Assembly (NCBI RefSeq): GCF_022557175.1
Contig: NZ_CP092915.1
Location: 558,001 to 622,000 of the forward strand
DNA: 64,000 nucleotides
From: Mycolicibacterium sp. YH-1
GTDB taxonomy: Bacteria; Actinomycetota; Actinomycetes; Mycobacteriales; Mycobacteriaceae
Reading direction: 5' to 3'
The translations under genes and the position numbers were made by a program. Within the stretch, counting starts at the first letter, position 1. Each line of letters starts with the position of its first letter. Under the pieces are notes generated by a model. The model saw only the letters and a list, made by a program, of their open reading frames with translations, searched no databases and had not been told where the DNA came from. Below, piece after piece: positions 50,861-59,001 of the stretch.

Positions 50861-51198
50861 GCGTCCTCGGGTGCACGCGCACCGTCGAGTGCGACGGCCC
50901 GTGCCAACTGCGCGTACTTCAGTTCGAGGTCCTTGAAGCGCATGTAGGTGCTGAGGGTGGTGAACAGGAACGCCACGATCAGCGCGTATCCGAGCAGGTC
51001 GGACCCGCGGTCGACGCCGAGCCAGTTGGCCAGCACGGTCGTGTCGTCGGGTCGCACGATGGCGTATACCGCGGCCACCACGAACAGGACGTAGCCCACC
51101 TTCACCCACGCCCGGGCCTGCGCGCTGCGCCGTGACCGCAGCAGGTACACCAGCAGCGTGATGATGGCCGCGATCAGCAGGACCTGGATCCAGTTCAT
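50857..51198 (-). CDS. DUF2304 membrane protein, PpgS partner (Rv3632-like)
   Basis: A 113-residue protein from the ATG at 51198 overlapping the ppgS stop (ATGA). Three predicted membrane helices (WIQVLLIAAIITLLVYLL, YVLFVVAAVYAIV, LLGYALIVAFLFTTLS) and a short C-terminal helix DLELKYAQLARAVAL are typical of DUF2304. In M. tuberculosis Rv3632 stimulates the adjacent polyprenyl-phosphate GalNAc synthase PpgS. It is the last gene of a five-gene coupled operon. Confidence 0.9.
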   Translation of the reverse strand: MNWIQVLLIAAIITLLVYLLRSRRSAQARAWVKVGYVLFVVAAVYAIVRPDDTTVLANWLGVDRGSDLLGYALIVAFLFTTLSTYMRFKDLELKYAQLARAVALDGARAPEDA

Positions 51199-51899
51199 CG
51201 ACGCATCCTTCCGCGCAGCAGTCCGTCGAAGACGATGTTGACGCCGTTGACCAACGGCTGCCCCTTCGACATCGAGTAGTCGGTGTAGATGATCTCGACG
51301 GGTTCCTCGGCCACCCGCCAACCGTTCTCGACTATCAGCGCAATGATCTCGCTGGCGTGGCTCATCCCGCTCATGGTGATGTTGAGCGATTCGGCGACGG
51401 TCCTGTTGAAAACCCGCAGACCGTTGTGCGCATCGGTCAGCCCCAGCTTGCGGCTGGCCGGGCTGAGCTTGGCGATGAGAGGGAACAGCATCCGCCGCAG
51501 CGCGGGCATGCGCGCGGGCACACTGCCGCCGAAGCGGGTGCCGATGACGATGTCGAGGTTCTCGGCGACAAGACGGTCGATCATCCGGATGACGTCCTTC
51601 ACGCGGTGCTGACCGTCGGCGTCGAACGTCACGAACACCGCTGCGCCGGGCCGGGCGCGGGCGTACTCGACGCCGGTCTGGATGGCCGCGCCCTGGCCCA
51701 GGTTGACCGGGTGGCGCACCAGGTGTGCCCCGGCGCGCAGCGCTCGCTCGCCGGTGTCGTCGCGGCTGCCGTCATCGACGCAGACCACATTGGGAAATAC
51801 GGTGCGAACGTCGGCGATGACGTCGCTGATGACGCTCGCCTCGTTGAAGGCTGGGACGACGATCCACACGTCGCGGTACGGGCTGTCGATGCCGATCAA
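51195..51899 (-). CDS. ppgS: Polyprenyl-phosphate N-acetylgalactosaminyl synthase PpgS (GT2)
   Basis: A 234-residue GT-A fold glycosyltransferase. The only available start is a TTG at 51899, one base after the upstream stop. VVPAFNEAS, VVCVDDGSRDDTG and VTFDADGQH (the DxD metal site) are the canonical GT2 blocks. Equivalent to Rv3631, which makes the lipid-linked GalNAc donor for the galactosamine decoration of arabinogalactan; the final transferase is encoded elsewhere (Rv3779 in M. tuberculosis). Confidence 0.9.
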   Translation of the reverse strand: MIGIDSPYRDVWIVVPAFNEASVISDVIADVRTVFPNVVCVDDGSRDDTGERALRAGAHLVRHPVNLGQGAAIQTGVEYARARPGAAVFVTFDADGQHRVKDVIRMIDRLVAENLDIVIGTRFGGSVPARMPALRRMLFPLIAKLSPASRKLGLTDAHNGLRVFNRTVAESLNITMSGMSHASEIIALIVENGWRVAEEPVEIIYTDYSMSKGQPLVNGVNIVFDGLLRGRMRR

Positions 51900-51900
51900 G

Positions 51901-53172
51901 TTACACGCTTACGCTGGGTGCGCCCTTGCGCAGCGCAACCAGGTGCACGCCGATTCCGACCAGCGGTCCGCACATCAGGGCCACCACTGTGCGGGTCGCG
52001 AGATCCAGGGGTAGCAGCAGAAGAAGGGTCGAGGCCAGCGTCGCCCCGACCCAGCCGGCGGCGTACGCGCGGTGCAGTGCGGCGGCGACGGCGGCGGCAC
52101 CTGTCAGGGTGAGCAGCGCGATGGCTATCGCCGCCGCGGTGAGCCACGCCAGCAGCGTGCCGCTGGCCTGATACTGGGGACCGAACGCAGCCGTCAGCAG
52201 CCACGGTCCGGCCAGACCCGCGATCGCCACCGCCAGTGCGCCGAGACCGATGACCACCAGGGTCGGCATCAGCAGGGCACGCAACCGGGCCTCGCGCTGG
52301 TCGACGAAGTAAGCGATCAGGTTGCCCTGCATGGCAGTCAGCGGTACCAGCAGCGGTGCGCGGGTCAGCGTGACCGCCAGTATCACCACACCACCGGCCG
52401 CGCCGAGGTCGGCTGAGGTGGCCTTCAGCAGCACCGGGAAGCCCATGACGAGAATCGCACTTGCGCCAGCCGCGGCGATGGAGTGCGTCGCCCCCCGCAG
52501 GAAGGTGCCGACGGTACCGGGCGTCAGCAGCCGCGCCGCGGCGCGCGACGCCGGGGAGGCCAGCAGCAGGATCAGCCATGCCATCGAGCCCGCGACGGTC
52601 GCCCACAGGTAACCGACCAGCGCCCACCCGACCAGGAAGGTGGTGATCGCCACCGCGACCCGGCCGATGGCGTCACCGACGATCAGCGCCCCGTACTGGC
52701 TCCACCGGTTAACCCCGGCCAGCACCCCCAACAGCGTGGCGTGCACACAGAAACCAGCTATGCCTGCGGCCAGCAGGCCCACGCTCAGCCACCGGGACTC
52801 GACGAAGACGTGGCTTGACCACAGCGGCGCGGTGACGGCGACAGTCGCCGCGGAGGCCAGACCGACAAGCACCGCCACCCGAATCGGACGGATCCGCGGA
52901 CCGGTGGGGTACCGCGCCGCACCGGCTTGTGCGACCTCGCGCACCTCGCGGGTGGACTCCTGGAGCAGGCCGTTGGCGGCCCCGGCCAGCAACCCGAAAG
53001 CACCCCAGAACACCGCGAACACCGAGAATCCCGCCGGTTCGAGGTCGCGCGCCGCGAGGTAGAGCACCAGGTACCCGCACACCGCGCTGATCAGCGTGGC
53101 GATACCGACCCTGACGACGCTGCCCCTGGTGACCGGCCCCAGCGCGGGAACGGGCGACGCGCCGTCGGTCAC
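51901..53172 (-). CDS. Flippase-like polytopic membrane protein (Rv3630-like)
   Basis: A 423-residue protein. The GTG at 53172 overlaps the stop of the M1 peptidase gene (GTGA). It has about twelve membrane helices; the first, VVRVGIATLISAVCGYLVLYLAARDL, and the FGAFG/GLLQE region resemble the MATE/Wzx oligosaccharidyl-lipid flippase superfamily. By position between the lipid-GalNAc synthase and the upstream genes, flipping polyprenyl-P-GalNAc across the membrane is an attractive role. This is inference; no residue proves a substrate. Confidence 0.78.
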   Translation of the reverse strand: MTDGASPVPALGPVTRGSVVRVGIATLISAVCGYLVLYLAARDLEPAGFSVFAVFWGAFGLLAGAANGLLQESTREVREVAQAGAARYPTGPRIRPIRVAVLVGLASAATVAVTAPLWSSHVFVESRWLSVGLLAAGIAGFCVHATLLGVLAGVNRWSQYGALIVGDAIGRVAVAITTFLVGWALVGYLWATVAGSMAWLILLLASPASRAAARLLTPGTVGTFLRGATHSIAAAGASAILVMGFPVLLKATSADLGAAGGVVILAVTLTRAPLLVPLTAMQGNLIAYFVDQREARLRALLMPTLVVIGLGALAVAIAGLAGPWLLTAAFGPQYQASGTLLAWLTAAAIAIALLTLTGAAAVAAALHRAYAAGWVGATLASTLLLLLPLDLATRTVVALMCGPLVGIGVHLVALRKGAPSVSV

Positions 53173-54500
53173 AGGTCCGGTAGCGCGGTGGAGTACAGCC
53201 AGGCCTGCCACAGCGGGCGCAGCGACTCGTCGGAGTAATTGGCGGCCAGACCGGTGAAGTCGTCAGTCACGGCGGTCGAGTGACGGTACCGGGTGGTCCA
53301 CTCCCGGAGCAGGTCGAAGAAGTTCTCGTCACCGATGGTGCGGCGCAACACGTGCAGCGTCACCGCGCCCCGCTTGTACACCCGGTCGTCGAACATGTCG
53401 CGTGGGCCGGGGTCGGCCAGAAGCAGGTCCTGACGTGAGGACGCGAGCTTCTGATAGTAGTACCGGGCGCGCTCGTCGGCGGTGCGGTCACCGGACTCCT
53501 CCGACCACAACCACTCGGCGTAGCAGGCGAAACCCTCGTGCAACCAGATGTCGCGCCAGCGTCGCGCCGTCACCGAATTGCCGAACCACTGATGCGCCAT
53601 CTCGTGGGCGACGAGTCGCTCGGCGCGGCGCGTACCGTCGCAGTGGTTGGCGCCGAATATCGAGATTCCCTGTGCCTCAAGGGGAATCTCCAAGTCATCG
53701 TCGGTGATCACCACGGTGTAGCCGCTCGAGAGGGGATACGGGCCGAAGAGCTTGACGAAGAGCTTCATCATCTGCGGCTGACGCCCGAAGTCATGGTCGA
53801 AGTTGGCGCGCAGACGCTCCGGCAGCACGACGCTCATCGGCACCGGCGTCTTGGTGACCCGGTGCTCCTCGTACTCGCCGATCTGCAGCGTGACGAGGTA
53901 GGTGGAGGTGGGTTCGGCCTGCTCGTAGGTCCACGTCGTCATCGCCGCGCGGGTGCGACGCGACACCAGCTTGCCGTTGGCCACCGCGTGGTAGGGATTC
54001 TCGGTGGTGATCGCGATGCGGTAGCTCGCCTTGCTGCTCGGGTGGTCATCACACGGGAACCACGATGCCGCCCCGTTGGGCTGGCCCGCCACCAGCGCCC
54101 CGCTGGACAACTCCTCGAATCCGACTTCGCCCCACAGGGTTCGGATGGGCCGGGGGGTTCCGCCGTAGCGCACCACCACGGCCATCGCGGCACCCGCGGG
54201 TAGCGCGGAGGCCAAGGTGATCTGAAGCTTTCCGCGTGAGGTGTGAAACGACGCGGGCCTGCGCCCGTTGACCGACACCTTGGACACCGACAGCGTGTCG
54301 GCGAGGTCCAGGGTGAACGTCTTGAGCGACGCCAGGGTCGTCGCCGTGATGGTGGCGGCACCCGACAGCCGGTTGATGTTGACCTTGTACTCGATGTCGA
54401 GCTCGTACCGCGACACCCGGTAGCCAAAGTTCCCGTTTCCGGGCAGGTAGGGGTCGATCACCGGGGGAGATGCCTTGAGCGCCTTCTTGAACCGGGTCAC
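53169..54500 (-). CDS. M1-family zinc aminopeptidase, candidate polylysine-degrading (Pld-like) enzyme
   Basis: A 443-residue protein with a GTG start inside the stop of the Pls-like gene (GTGA). The zinc site is HEMAH (299-303) with the third ligand E322 in HEGFACYAE, spacing x18. The exopeptidase motif, usually GAMEN, is LEAQG here (E275), a variant found in actinobacterial M1 proteins. The C-terminal helical domain is short. No signal peptide is seen. In epsilon-polylysine-producing Streptomyces a Zn aminopeptidase (Pld) protects the producer; coupling of this gene to the Pls-like synthetase suggests the same role, which is not shown. Confidence 0.87.
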   Translation of the reverse strand: MTRFKKALKASPPVIDPYLPGNGNFGYRVSRYELDIEYKVNINRLSGAATITATTLASLKTFTLDLADTLSVSKVSVNGRRPASFHTSRGKLQITLASALPAGAAMAVVVRYGGTPRPIRTLWGEVGFEELSSGALVAGQPNGAASWFPCDDHPSSKASYRIAITTENPYHAVANGKLVSRRTRAAMTTWTYEQAEPTSTYLVTLQIGEYEEHRVTKTPVPMSVVLPERLRANFDHDFGRQPQMMKLFVKLFGPYPLSSGYTVVITDDDLEIPLEAQGISIFGANHCDGTRRAERLVAHEMAHQWFGNSVTARRWRDIWLHEGFACYAEWLWSEESGDRTADERARYYYQKLASSRQDLLLADPGPRDMFDDRVYKRGAVTLHVLRRTIGDENFFDLLREWTTRYRHSTAVTDDFTGLAANYSDESLRPLWQAWLYSTALPDL

Positions 54501-57500
54501 GCGGCGGAGGCTCCGGACTTCTTCGACTTCGCCGCGCGGCCGCTGCGCTTCTTGCCCAACGGGTTCCATGGCGCGATCGGGTTGCCCTGCCATCGGGTCG
54601 AGGCCGGGACCTCGTCGCCGCGCATCACCAGGGAGGCGGGTCCCACCGTGGCACCCGCGCCGATCCTCGCGGCGGGTAGCGCCACACAGTGCGGCCCGAG
54701 CGTCGAACCGGCCTCGAGTGTGACGGTGTCCATCCGCATGATGCGGTCGTGGAACAGGTGCGTCTGCACGACGCAGCCACGGTTGACCGTCGCGCCCGCG
54801 CCCAGCTCGACCAGGTCGGCCTCGGGCAGCCAGTACGTCTCGCACCACACCCCGGCCCCGATCTTCGCGCCGAGCGCCCGCAGCCAGAGGTTCATCACGA
54901 ACGTGCCGCTGGCGGCGCGGGCGAACCAGGGTGCGGCGACCGTCTCGACAAAGGTGTCCGACACCTCGTTGCGCCAGACGAACGACGACCACAGGGGATG
55001 CTCGATGGCGCGAATCCTGCCGATCACCAACCACTTCGCCACCACCGCGATGGTTCCGGCGATCGCGCCGGCCACCAGCAGGATGATCCCGCCACCCAAC
55101 GCGGCCCACACGTAGCCGAACTCACCGGCCAGGTACTGCAGCGCACCGAGCACCGCGACGCCGATCGCGAACGTGACGATGAGCGGGATGACGCGGCACG
55201 TCTCGACCAGTGAGCGCAGCAGCTTCAACCGCGGCGACGGATGGAATGTGCGCAGTGCGTCGGCCGGGGCCGGTTGGCGGCGCAACCGGATCGGGGGGCT
55301 GCCCAACCACGACGAGCCCGCCTTCGCCTTGTGCGGTGCCGCGCTCAGCACCGCGACCAGACCGTCATCGGGTACCCGTCGGCCGGGTTGGGTGATACCG
55401 GAGTTGCCGAGGAACGCCCGCTTGCCGATCGTCGCCTTGGCGACGTGAATCCAGCCGCCGCCGAGTTCGTAGGAGGCCACCATGGTGTCGTCGGCCAGGA
55501 ACGCGCCGTCCTCGATGACGGTGAACTTCGGGGTGAGCAGCGCGGTCGAGATCTCGGTTCCGCGACCGACTTTCGCGCCAAGCAAACGCAGCCACCACGG
55601 GGTGAGCAGGCTGGCGTAGATGGGGAACAGATAGTTGCGCGCCGCATCCATGAGCCGTTCGGTGGCCCACAGCTGCCAGCCGACGCGGCTGCGCACCGGG
55701 TGATAGCCCTCGTACAGCCCCAGTGCCAACACGCGGACACCGATCACCGTCAACCCGGCGTAGGCGACAACCGCGGCCAGCGTGGCCACCGGTGTCCAGA
55801 TCAGCGCGGGCACGATCGCGTCGGTGAGAGACGCGGTGTCCCGGATCGCCCAGCCCAGCACGGCCAGTCCGGTACCAAGCGCGACGAGGGGCACACCGCC
55901 GAGCAGTACCGAGGTGAGGCCGTACATGAGCACCCAGAACGGGGCGCGGCGCGGTCGCTCGTCGGGCCACGGGTGCCGGGCCTTGCCCGACTTGAGCGCC
56001 GGTGAGCCCTTCCAGAACTGACCCGCCTTGACCTTGCCCACCACGCCGGAACCCGGTGCGACGTCGGCATTCTTGCCCACCACGGCGCCAGGCAGCAGGG
56101 TCGTCCGCGCCCCGATCGTGGCGTCGTTGCCGATCTCGATGCGACCGACGTGGAAGTGGTCGCCGTCGATCCAGTGCCCGGTGAGGTCGACCTCCGGCTC
56201 GATCGAACACCGGTGGCCGAGGGTCAGCATGCCGGTGACGGGAGGGGCGGAGTGCAGGTCGACACCCTTGCCCACCCTGTTGCCCAACATCCGGGCGTAG
56301 TAGACGAGCCATGGCGCACCGGCCTGGTTCTCGGCCCCGCTGGCCTCGCCGAGTCGCTCGGCCAGCCAGACGCGCAGATGCACCGATCCACCACGTCGGT
56401 AGGTGCCCGGTTCGAGCCCGCCGAGCAGCATGCGTGCGCACAGCACCGCGATACCCATCCGGCCCGGGGGCGTGACGAAGACCAGGAACCCCGCCAGGAT
56501 CCACCACCAGTTGACCGGCACGGCCCACGACAGCAGGCCCAGACCCGCGGCGATGTTGTTGAACAGCGCCAGCCACACCACCCACTGCATACCGGTCAGG
56601 GTCGCCAGCGGCAGCGACATCCCGACCTGCGCCAGCTGCGTCAGACGCGGCACCTTCTTGACGGTCCGCGTGATGACCGCGGGCGGCGGGTCGAGTTCGT
56701 CGAGGTAGCCCGCCAGCGATCCCAGCCGGGGATGGTCGTACAGGTCGGCGACCGTCACCTGCGGGTAGCGCGCCCGCAGCGCGGCGACCAACTGCGCCGC
56801 CGACAGCGAGCCTCCGCCGAGCGCGAAGAAGTCCTCCTCCGGTCCCGCGACGGGTGCGGCGAGCACATCGCGCCACAGTCCGGCGAGCCAGCCGGTGGTG
56901 CCCGCGAGATCGGGGTCGTCCGCACCGGTGTCGCCCGCCACGGGCCACGGCAGCGCGTCGCGGTCGACCTTGCCCGACGTGCGGGTGGGCAGCTCGTCGA
57001 CCAGGACCAGGCGCGGCACCAGCGCGGCGGGCAGCGACTCGGCCAGCGCAATGCGCGCCGCGGCGACGTCGAAGTCCGGGTCGGCGCTCGCGATGTAGCC
57101 GACCAGAAGTGGTGTGCCGCTTGCGGTCTTGCGCACCGCCGCGGCGCCGCCGCTGACTCCGGGCAGGTTGACCAGCGCCGAGTCGACCTCGCCGAGTTCG
57201 ATGCGGCGCCCGCCGACCTTGACCTGATCGTCGGCGCGCCCCTGGAAGTAGAGCCCGTCGGACTCGAGGCGGACCAGGTCGCCGCTGCGGTAGGCCCGCG
57301 CCCAGCCCAGCGTGGGCATCGGCGCGTACTTCTCGGCGTCCTTCTCCGGGTCCAGGTAGCGCGCGAGCCCCACCCCGCCGATCACCAGCTCCCCGGTCTC
57401 GCCCACGGGCACCGGAAGGCCGTCCTTGTCGACGACGGCCAGGTCCCAGCCCGGCAGCGGCAGGCCGATGCTGACGGGACCGCGCCCGTCCAGCTTGGCC

Positions 57501-58438
57501 AGGCACGCCACGACAGTCGCCTCGGTGGGGCCGTAGGTGTTCCACACCTCGCGGCCCGCCGAATCGGGGCCGGCCGCGAGCCGTTCGGCCAGTTCCGGCG
57601 GGCATGCCTCGCCGCCGAAGATCAGCAGGCGCACCGCCTCCAGCGCCTCGGCGGGCCACAGCGCGGCCAGCGTCGGCACCGTCGAGACCACCGTGATGTC
57701 GCGCGCCACCAGCCACGGCCCCAGATCCATGCCGCTGCGCACCAGCGAACGGGGCGCAGGCACCAGACATGCGCCGTGCCGCCAGGCCAGCCACATCTCC
57801 TCACATGACGCGTCGAAGGCCACCGACAGCCCGGCGAGTACCCGGTCGCCGGGCCCTAGCGGATTGGCCTGCAGGAATATCTGGGCCTCGGCGTCGACGA
57901 ACGCCGCCGCGTTGCGGTGCGTCACCGCGACGCCCTTGGGCGTTCCGGTCGAGCCGGACGTGAAGATGATCCACGCGTCGTCGCGACCGAGCGGCCTGGC
58001 GGCGCGCCAGCCCCGCGACGACCCGTGACCGCGGATGAGGCCGGCCTCGGTGATGACGCCGACGACGCCGGCCTCGCCGAACACCAGGGCGGCCCGCTCG
58101 TCGGGGTCGTCAGCGTCGACCGGCACGTATGCCGCGCCTGCGGCGAGGGTGGACAGGATCGCCACGTACAGCGCGTAGCTGCCCGACGGCATGCGGATGC
58201 CGATGCGGTCGCCGCGCCCGATGCCCCGGGCGGCCAGCCACTCCACGCTCTCCTCGACGTCGGCGATCAGCTCGGCGTAGGTGAGCTGAACGTCACCGTC
58301 GTCGAGCGCGGGTGCGTCCGGATGGCGCTCGGCGGTGGCGTAGAGGATGTCGATCAGCGTGCGTGGCTCCGTCGCCGCCGAGGACAACAGGTACTGGGCG
58401 GGGATGCCGAACTCCGGAGGTCCCTCGTCTGCTGTCAC
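54497..58438 (-). CDS. Pls/PosA-type single-module NRPS: epsilon-poly-L-lysine synthetase-like
   Basis: A 1313-residue protein; Streptomyces albulus Pls has about 1319. GTG start at 58438 with no Shine-Dalgarno; TAGTTT lies six bases upstream, fitting a leaderless mRNA. Adenylation domain about 25-500: FTSGSTGTPKG (159-169), NTYGPTEAT (300-308), YRSGDL (383-388), GRADDQVKVGG (400-410), Lys490. Carrier domain about 510-580 with LGGGS at 540-544. Then six membrane helices in three pairs (about 615-655, 838-900, 1085-1138) separating three hexapeptide beta-helix domains (about 738-812, 955-1050, 1185-1290), the Pls architecture that couples monomers without a thioesterase. Pocket residues D209, A210, E213, S252, I273, G275, T301, V309, V310 and K490 read DAESIGTVVK, close to the lysine code of bacitracin synthetase as I recall it. 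Product is inferred. Confidence 0.9.
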   Translation of the reverse strand: MTADEGPPEFGIPAQYLLSSAATEPRTLIDILYATAERHPDAPALDDGDVQLTYAELIADVEESVEWLAARGIGRGDRIGIRMPSGSYALYVAILSTLAAGAAYVPVDADDPDERAALVFGEAGVVGVITEAGLIRGHGSSRGWRAARPLGRDDAWIIFTSGSTGTPKGVAVTHRNAAAFVDAEAQIFLQANPLGPGDRVLAGLSVAFDASCEEMWLAWRHGACLVPAPRSLVRSGMDLGPWLVARDITVVSTVPTLAALWPAEALEAVRLLIFGGEACPPELAERLAAGPDSAGREVWNTYGPTEATVVACLAKLDGRGPVSIGLPLPGWDLAVVDKDGLPVPVGETGELVIGGVGLARYLDPEKDAEKYAPMPTLGWARAYRSGDLVRLESDGLYFQGRADDQVKVGGRRIELGEVDSALVNLPGVSGGAAAVRKTASGTPLLVGYIASADPDFDVAAARIALAESLPAALVPRLVLVDELPTRTSGKVDRDALPWPVAGDTGADDPDLAGTTGWLAGLWRDVLAAPVAGPEEDFFALGGGSLSAAQLVAALRARYPQVTVADLYDHPRLGSLAGYLDELDPPPAVITRTVKKVPRLTQLAQVGMSLPLATLTGMQWVVWLALFNNIAAGLGLLSWAVPVNWWWILAGFLVFVTPPGRMGIAVLCARMLLGGLEPGTYRRGGSVHLRVWLAERLGEASGAENQAGAPWLVYYARMLGNRVGKGVDLHSAPPVTGMLTLGHRCSIEPEVDLTGHWIDGDHFHVGRIEIGNDATIGARTTLLPGAVVGKNADVAPGSGVVGKVKAGQFWKGSPALKSGKARHPWPDERPRRAPFWVLMYGLTSVLLGGVPLVALGTGLAVLGWAIRDTASLTDAIVPALIWTPVATLAAVVAYAGLTVIGVRVLALGLYEGYHPVRSRVGWQLWATERLMDAARNYLFPIYASLLTPWWLRLLGAKVGRGTEISTALLTPKFTVIEDGAFLADDTMVASYELGGGWIHVAKATIGKRAFLGNSGITQPGRRVPDDGLVAVLSAAPHKAKAGSSWLGSPPIRLRRQPAPADALRTFHPSPRLKLLRSLVETCRVIPLIVTFAIGVAVLGALQYLAGEFGYVWAALGGGIILLVAGAIAGTIAVVAKWLVIGRIRAIEHPLWSSFVWRNEVSDTFVETVAAPWFARAASGTFVMNLWLRALGAKIGAGVWCETYWLPEADLVELGAGATVNRGCVVQTHLFHDRIMRMDTVTLEAGSTLGPHCVALPAARIGAGATVGPASLVMRGDEVPASTRWQGNPIAPWNPLGKKRSGRAAKSKKSGASAA

Positions 58439-58605: not shown

Positions 58606-59001
58606 GTGGCGGTGGTGCGGATCTTTGTGGCTGATGAGGCAGGCGAGGACGTCAGCGAGCTGACCTCCGGTGGACAACCCGTGGTGAGGCTCACAGCCCC
58701 CGATCTGCAGTGGGCCAAGCGCGGTACCGCCAGAATCCACGCCGACGGCGGTGGCGTGGCGGTGATCCTCGATGTCTCGGTCGCGGTGCCTGGTGACTTC
58801 CGGGTGCCTGCGGCCTCCGAAACGGTGCACTATGCGGGCACCGTGGCGGGGCTGGCGGGGCTGATCGCCGACATCGGCTTGGCGGGCGTCGCCGACGGCG
58901 TCACCCTGGTCCCCGCCACCGAACTGGGCCCCGGGGAGCTGCGCCAGCTCGGGCAGGACGTGCTGCGCCGCCTCGCCGATCGCGAGCCGAAGTCCGCCTG
59001 A
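58606..59001 (+). CDS. Small conserved protein of unknown function
   Basis: A 131-residue protein from the GTG at 58606 with GGAGGG seven bases upstream. It is divergent from the Pls-like gene with a 167-bp shared upstream region. The C-terminal half (AGTVAGLAGLIADIGLAGVADGVTLVPATELGP) resembles the tail of luciferase-like oxidoreductases, but no catalytic domain precedes it. No signal or membrane segment. Function unknown. Confidence 0.6.
   Translation: MAVVRIFVADEAGEDVSELTSGGQPVVRLTAPDLQWAKRGTARIHADGGGVAVILDVSVAVPGDFRVPAASETVHYAGTVAGLAGLIADIGLAGVADGVTLVPATELGPGELRQLGQDVLRRLADREPKSA

Follow-up and report, generated by a model that had tools for sequence, protein, structure and literature searches.

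The window analyzed here (the whole 64,000-nucleotide stretch) contains a long open reading frame resembling the synthetase of epsilon-polylysine (Pls), a strongly cationic antimicrobial polymer, and it raises the question of what a mycobacterium would make with such an enzyme. Our analysis indicates, with a probability of about 80%, that the synthetase makes epsilon-poly-L-lysine and that an M1 metallopeptidase encoded by an overlapping gene likely trims or degrades the chain. The same lysine chain is likely made because the gene is a close relative of the epsilon-polylysine synthetase. The synthetase gene and its domains were located as follows:

54497..58438, minus strand: Pls-type synthetase gene (ORF of 1313 aa, GTG start at 58438, TGA stop at 54497).
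56939..58339, minus strand: adenylation domain (residues about 34–500; 315 of 482 residues identical to PDB entry 7wew).
56702..56890, minus strand: carrier domain (residues 517–579; carrier Ser544 in LGGGSLS).
54575..56629, minus strand: polymerizing region (NRPS_term_dom; residues 604–1288, from the TIGR02353 match and the AlphaFold2 model).

The coordinates and the length of 1313 residues had been given correctly in the preliminary description, which did not name the strand; the plus-strand reading of the same interval contained five stops. Judged by its sequence, the ORF is a peptide synthetase of the Pls/PosA family, predicted to be seated in the membrane. The NCBIfam model of this family, TIGR02353, aligned to residues 604–1288 from model position 3 to 695 of 695 and scored 741.7 bits, where the curated cut-off is 423.1. 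The adenylation model TIGR01733 (AA-adenyl-dom, residues 53–429) also scored above its cut-off (325.2 vs. 317.4 bits). Pfam domains of the synthetase were AMP-binding (34–360), PP-binding (517–579), and Hexapep only; neither condensation nor thioesterase domains were found in it by the Pfam scan. In the alignment, at least 98% of 106 rows conserve Ser544. The organism's own genome (7.27 Mb, one contig) yielded four matches, one of them above the cut-off; of 14 control genomes, 1 gave a match above the cut-off in the same search. TIGR02353 being a curated NCBI model, these genes may well be named in genome annotations.

Residues 589–1313 were modeled with AlphaFold2 from 33 aligned sequences (the window and 32 of 80 loci), with a mean pLDDT of 82.1 and a pTM of 0.84. 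Membrane-helix pairs were predicted at about 598–671, 834–905, and 1083–1138, alternating with three strand-repeat (beta-helix) domains. This model, Pfam, and TIGR02353 agree with the build proposed earlier: an adenylation domain, a carrier domain, six helices in three pairs, and three beta-helix domains. By hydropathy alone, helix pairs two and three were clear and pair one was weak; two further weak peaks lay within the adenylation domain, which are not known to be membrane helices in any relative. The best fold matches of the C-terminal half were hexapeptide-repeat acetyltransferases, which were weak (best E-value 2.6e-3, none at or below 0.001), and our literature search for a published structure of the polymerizing domains returned nothing relevant.

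The substrate pocket of the synthetase was read as DAESIGTVVK (residues 209, 210, 213, 252, 273, 275, 301, 309, 310, and 490). Among PDB entries, the closest by sequence was 7wew, epsilon-poly-L-lysine synthase (the adenylation domain of Streptomyces albulus Pls), with 631 bits over residues 11–500; the runner-up reached 378 bits. The two adenylation domains were 65% identical, and their pockets coincided at 10 of 10 residues. The alignment with Pls, proposed earlier as a check, thus left the pocket lysine type, as first described, with no shift from a Lys/Orn-type code. The same pocket was present in 109 of 112 aligned rows, the remaining three being contigs that end short of it; the rows comprised the window, 7wew, and loci L005–L114, of which L005 is the copy from the window itself, while L006 and L008 duplicate L035 and L036. 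Distant orthologues from the family (55–67% identical) carried DAESIGTVVK in 11 of 11 cases, as did each of four orthologues belonging to other families in the class (58–63% identical overall; 64–65% to 7wew over its domain), each with an M1 match downstream.

The residue at pocket position 2 is reported to follow the length of the substrate, being Ala in lysine enzymes, Met in ornithine enzymes, and Phe in those for diaminopropionate or diaminobutyrate; in PosA, the Glu at position 3 is reported to be essential (PMC10522769). The window has Ala at position 2, i.e., neither Met nor Phe. Second-copy synthetases from eight family genomes (L117–L125) served as a control: DFEYLGTVTK was read in 9 of 9, and they were 32–36% identical to the window synthetase, depending on the alignment. 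No M1 peptidase was found beside any of the nine within roughly 2 kb on each side; these second copies are perhaps diaminopropionate or diaminobutyrate enzymes. The pocket of the window synthetase is of the lysine type, and the enzyme is very likely one for lysine.

Downstream of the synthetase, the following features were found:

53169..54500, minus strand: M1 metallopeptidase gene (443 aa; Peptidase_M1 and Peptidase_M1_N domains).
54497..54500, minus strand: GTGA overlap (GTG start of the peptidase over the TGA stop of the synthetase).

The peptidase gene lies directly downstream of the synthetase and encodes HEMAH followed by Glu 18 residues on (HEMAH-18-E), which we take to be the mark of M1 peptidases. 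PldII is presumably also an M1-type peptidase. In S. albulus, pldII encodes the major polylysine-degrading enzyme, an aminopeptidase located outside the membrane, and is translationally coupled to pls (PMC9223678). The window's peptidase, which can be set alongside PldII by description, gene position, and M1 type, is likely its counterpart. The assignment to a Pls-like enzyme class, made before from the sequence, is borne out by the TIGR02353 score, by the pocket shared with S. albulus Pls, and by a peptidase overlap in line with the coupling reported for pls and pldII (PMC9223678).

An in-frame peptidase start within the 4-base overlap was found at all 67 scorable mycobacterial loci (60 GTGA, 6 ATGA, and 1 TTGA); this set includes the window's own copy and MAGs counted as mycobacterial by identity, two duplicates and one contig-end locus having been dropped. 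The other 40 loci all had an M1 match, which was at most 150 bases away in 34 and overlapped by 4 bases in 15. Among the 297 genomes of the genus, 218 encoded both genes, 76 neither, two the synthetase only (G183 and G257), and one the peptidase only (G126). G183 is a complete single-contig genome; G126 is 63% complete. Joint loss of the two genes is expected of an operon and is not independent evidence, because the genes overlap. Five lysine-pocket synthetases from small-genome members of the family (L126–L130) had no M1 match within about 3 kb, and these count against the paired-enzyme explanation. In L126, the next ORFs were enoyl-CoA-hydratase-like and polyphosphate-kinase-2-like, as labeled by reading the sequence.

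The wider neighborhood contained the following genes:

51901..53211, minus strand: third gene (at most 436 aa; overlaps the 3' end of the peptidase gene).
51195..51899, minus strand: gene of glycosyltransferase family 2, next after the third gene.
58606..59001, plus strand: divergent 131-aa ORF with no Pfam match.

The third gene, which like the peptidase adds to what had been described before, has a predicted transporter fold of the MOP superfamily (MATE/Wzx/MurJ type). From this predicted fold it is possibly an exporter, and it may belong to the synthetase–peptidase system. Eight further neighbors were counted at 65 loci of at least 19 kb, as matches at the locus and not all of them adjacent: the third gene was present at 26, the glycosyltransferase 2 gene at 16, an OHCU decarboxylase gene at 15, and the 131-aa ORF at 12, and the remaining four neighbors gave 5, 5, 0, and 0 matches. 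A wider fixed gene cluster was rejected, the best further neighbor reaching 26 of 65 loci against 65 of 65 for the peptidase. Taken together, a synthetase in one operon with a likely degrading enzyme, and in a subset of species with a third gene of transporter fold, most likely represents an addition to the known Pls type.

The gene is not confined to a single mycobacterium: the synthetase was found in 220 of 297 genus genomes at an E-value of 1e-100 (205 of the 275 of good quality). Within the family (GTDB sense; own genome counted), 109 of 121 genomes and 28 of 31 genera carried it. A phylum-wide sample, searched at a different threshold (1e-150) from the genus, gave 8 of 149 genomes, with 4 of 144 outside the family among the matches listed. 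Holders listed among the best 80 loci included Mycolicibacterium septicum, M. vanbaalenii, M. sphagni, Mycobacterium asiaticum, M. angelicum, and Mycolicibacter engbaekii, as well as Rhodococcus, Nocardia, Tsukamurella, Williamsia, and Dietzia; the closest relative among the matches listed was Mycolicibacterium sp. P9-64 (88% identical). The synthetase is near-core in the family, with wide vertical retention, and is under purifying selection (pN/pS of 0.16–0.31 against eight relatives).

A gene tree was built by a quick method from 48 chosen rows, in which the S. albulus row fills 37% of columns only. The window was placed within the mycobacteria, followed outward by a relative, L135, then Tsukamurella and Williamsia, and then Nocardia and Rhodococcus; from this level down, the order fits vertical descent. 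A recent transfer from Streptomyces was rejected, the synthetase nesting among mycobacteria. In the deep part of the tree, whose order is tentative, the family did not stay together: Dietzia and the family rows L126, L128, and L130–L133 fell outside a starred group in which Kribbella, Compostimonas, Humibacillus, and Solihabitans are joined with the core genera.

The S. albulus Pls shares with the window its domain build, the adenylation-domain identity and pocket given above, and a coupled metallopeptidase gene, pldII, directly downstream of and adjoining pls (PMC9223678). It differs in its host and in that the window's gene is widely and vertically retained in its family; the identity figure covers the adenylation domain. 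Corynebacterium variabile we take to belong to the same family as the window organism in the GTDB sense. Its Pls, 51% identical to the Streptomyces enzyme, is also encoded in an operon with a peptidase gene and makes epsilon-polylysine in S. coelicolor (PMC8117764), in contrast to the window's enzyme, which is known from sequence. This is the sole demonstration of a product that we found for the family, and it was obtained in a foreign host. Presence of the gene does not equal production, because neither C. variabile in culture nor C. glutamicum carrying the cloned gene yielded the polymer, according to the same report (PMC8117764). PosA, the delta-poly-L-ornithine synthetase of Acinetobacter baumannii, resembles the window's enzyme in its Pls/PosA build, in its reaction type, and in having Asp at pocket position 1 and Glu at position 3, but its pocket reads DMEHNGTVSK, with Met in place of Ala, and its substrate is ornithine (PMC10522769).

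Homologues of pls are reported from coryneform bacteria of cheese and skin, Rhodococcus included (PMC8117764), and the antiSMASH class for such polymers from 218 of 263 Nocardia genomes (PMC12153302). The main text of PMC8117764 contains no word beginning with "mycobact"; the lone mention of Mycobacterium in PMC10522769 is a reference to GlmU, and PMC9964534, which has NAPAA in its abstract and names Mycobacterium in its text, reports clusters of this class only from Arthrobacter, Methylobacterium, and Microbacterium. We failed to find a description of mycobacterial epsilon-polylysine or its synthetase in the titles and abstract starts of the open-access literature.

By analogy with the Streptomyces Pls, L-lysine would be activated with ATP by the adenylation domain and held as a thioester on the carrier domain, and the epsilon-amine would attack the thioester repeatedly within the membrane-flanked beta-helix domains, without a thioesterase. 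The chain would exit across the membrane, perhaps helped in some species by the transporter of the third gene. Translation of the peptidase is likely coupled to that of the synthetase, and the enzyme may protect the producer or recycle the chain.

The main competitor to the free polymer is a lysine isopeptide, short or capped, that would be coupled to an envelope component via the neighboring transporter and glycosyltransferase. The synthetase being near-core in the family is unusual for an antibiotic and would suit such a role, as would the MATE/Wzx-fold gene at 26 of 65 loci and the glycosyltransferase 2 gene nearby in 16; yet both genes are missing from most of these loci, and neither an enzyme nor a signal for attachment was seen, which makes this explanation improbable. 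Attachment of the product to the cell wall, suggested in the preliminary description, was set aside: no supporting feature was found. A shade less probable still is that this Pls/PosA-family enzyme builds its homopolymer from a basic amino acid other than L-lysine (ornithine, diaminobutyrate, diaminopropionate, or beta-lysine). Enzymes of this kind are included in the Pls/PosA family (PMC10522769), and related genomes carry the second copy with a Phe-type pocket, but the window's pocket, compared with the codes for lysine, ornithine, and diaminopropionate/diaminobutyrate, equals that of Pls at every position, with Ala at position 2.

It is very improbable that the locus has fallen silent or is decaying and yields no product. 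The gene can be lost, as 77 of 297 genus genomes had no match, and C. variabile with a working pls gave no polymer in culture (PMC8117764); against this, the 1313 codons are open, the carrier serine and the pocket are intact, and the pN/pS values are low, as given above. An epsilon-poly-L-lysine synthetase with its coupled peptidase remains our preferred explanation. Broader and more tentative, with the odds somewhat against it, is the proposal that epsilon-poly-L-lysine, rather than being a Streptomyces specialty, has long been kept by the mycobacterial family as a near-core product, which the coupled pair makes and trims, a subset of species exports via a dedicated MATE/Wzx-type exporter of the same operon, and the cell uses for its own envelope or surface physiology. 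We lowered our estimate for this proposal slightly, because the deep order of the tree speaks against a simple vertical history in the family.

Two things make the locus notable: the third gene, and a near-core distribution under purifying selection within a family for which the one product demonstration that we found was made in a foreign host. If the proposed function is correct, a strongly cationic antimicrobial polymer would be a normal, overlooked product of many mycobacteria, encoded at a single locus that lends itself to deletion or expression. Consequences would follow for the surface charge of environmental mycobacteria and for how they compete, and many natural synthetases would be on offer for polymer production. 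The question would then shift from which strain makes polylysine to why a whole family has kept the enzyme.
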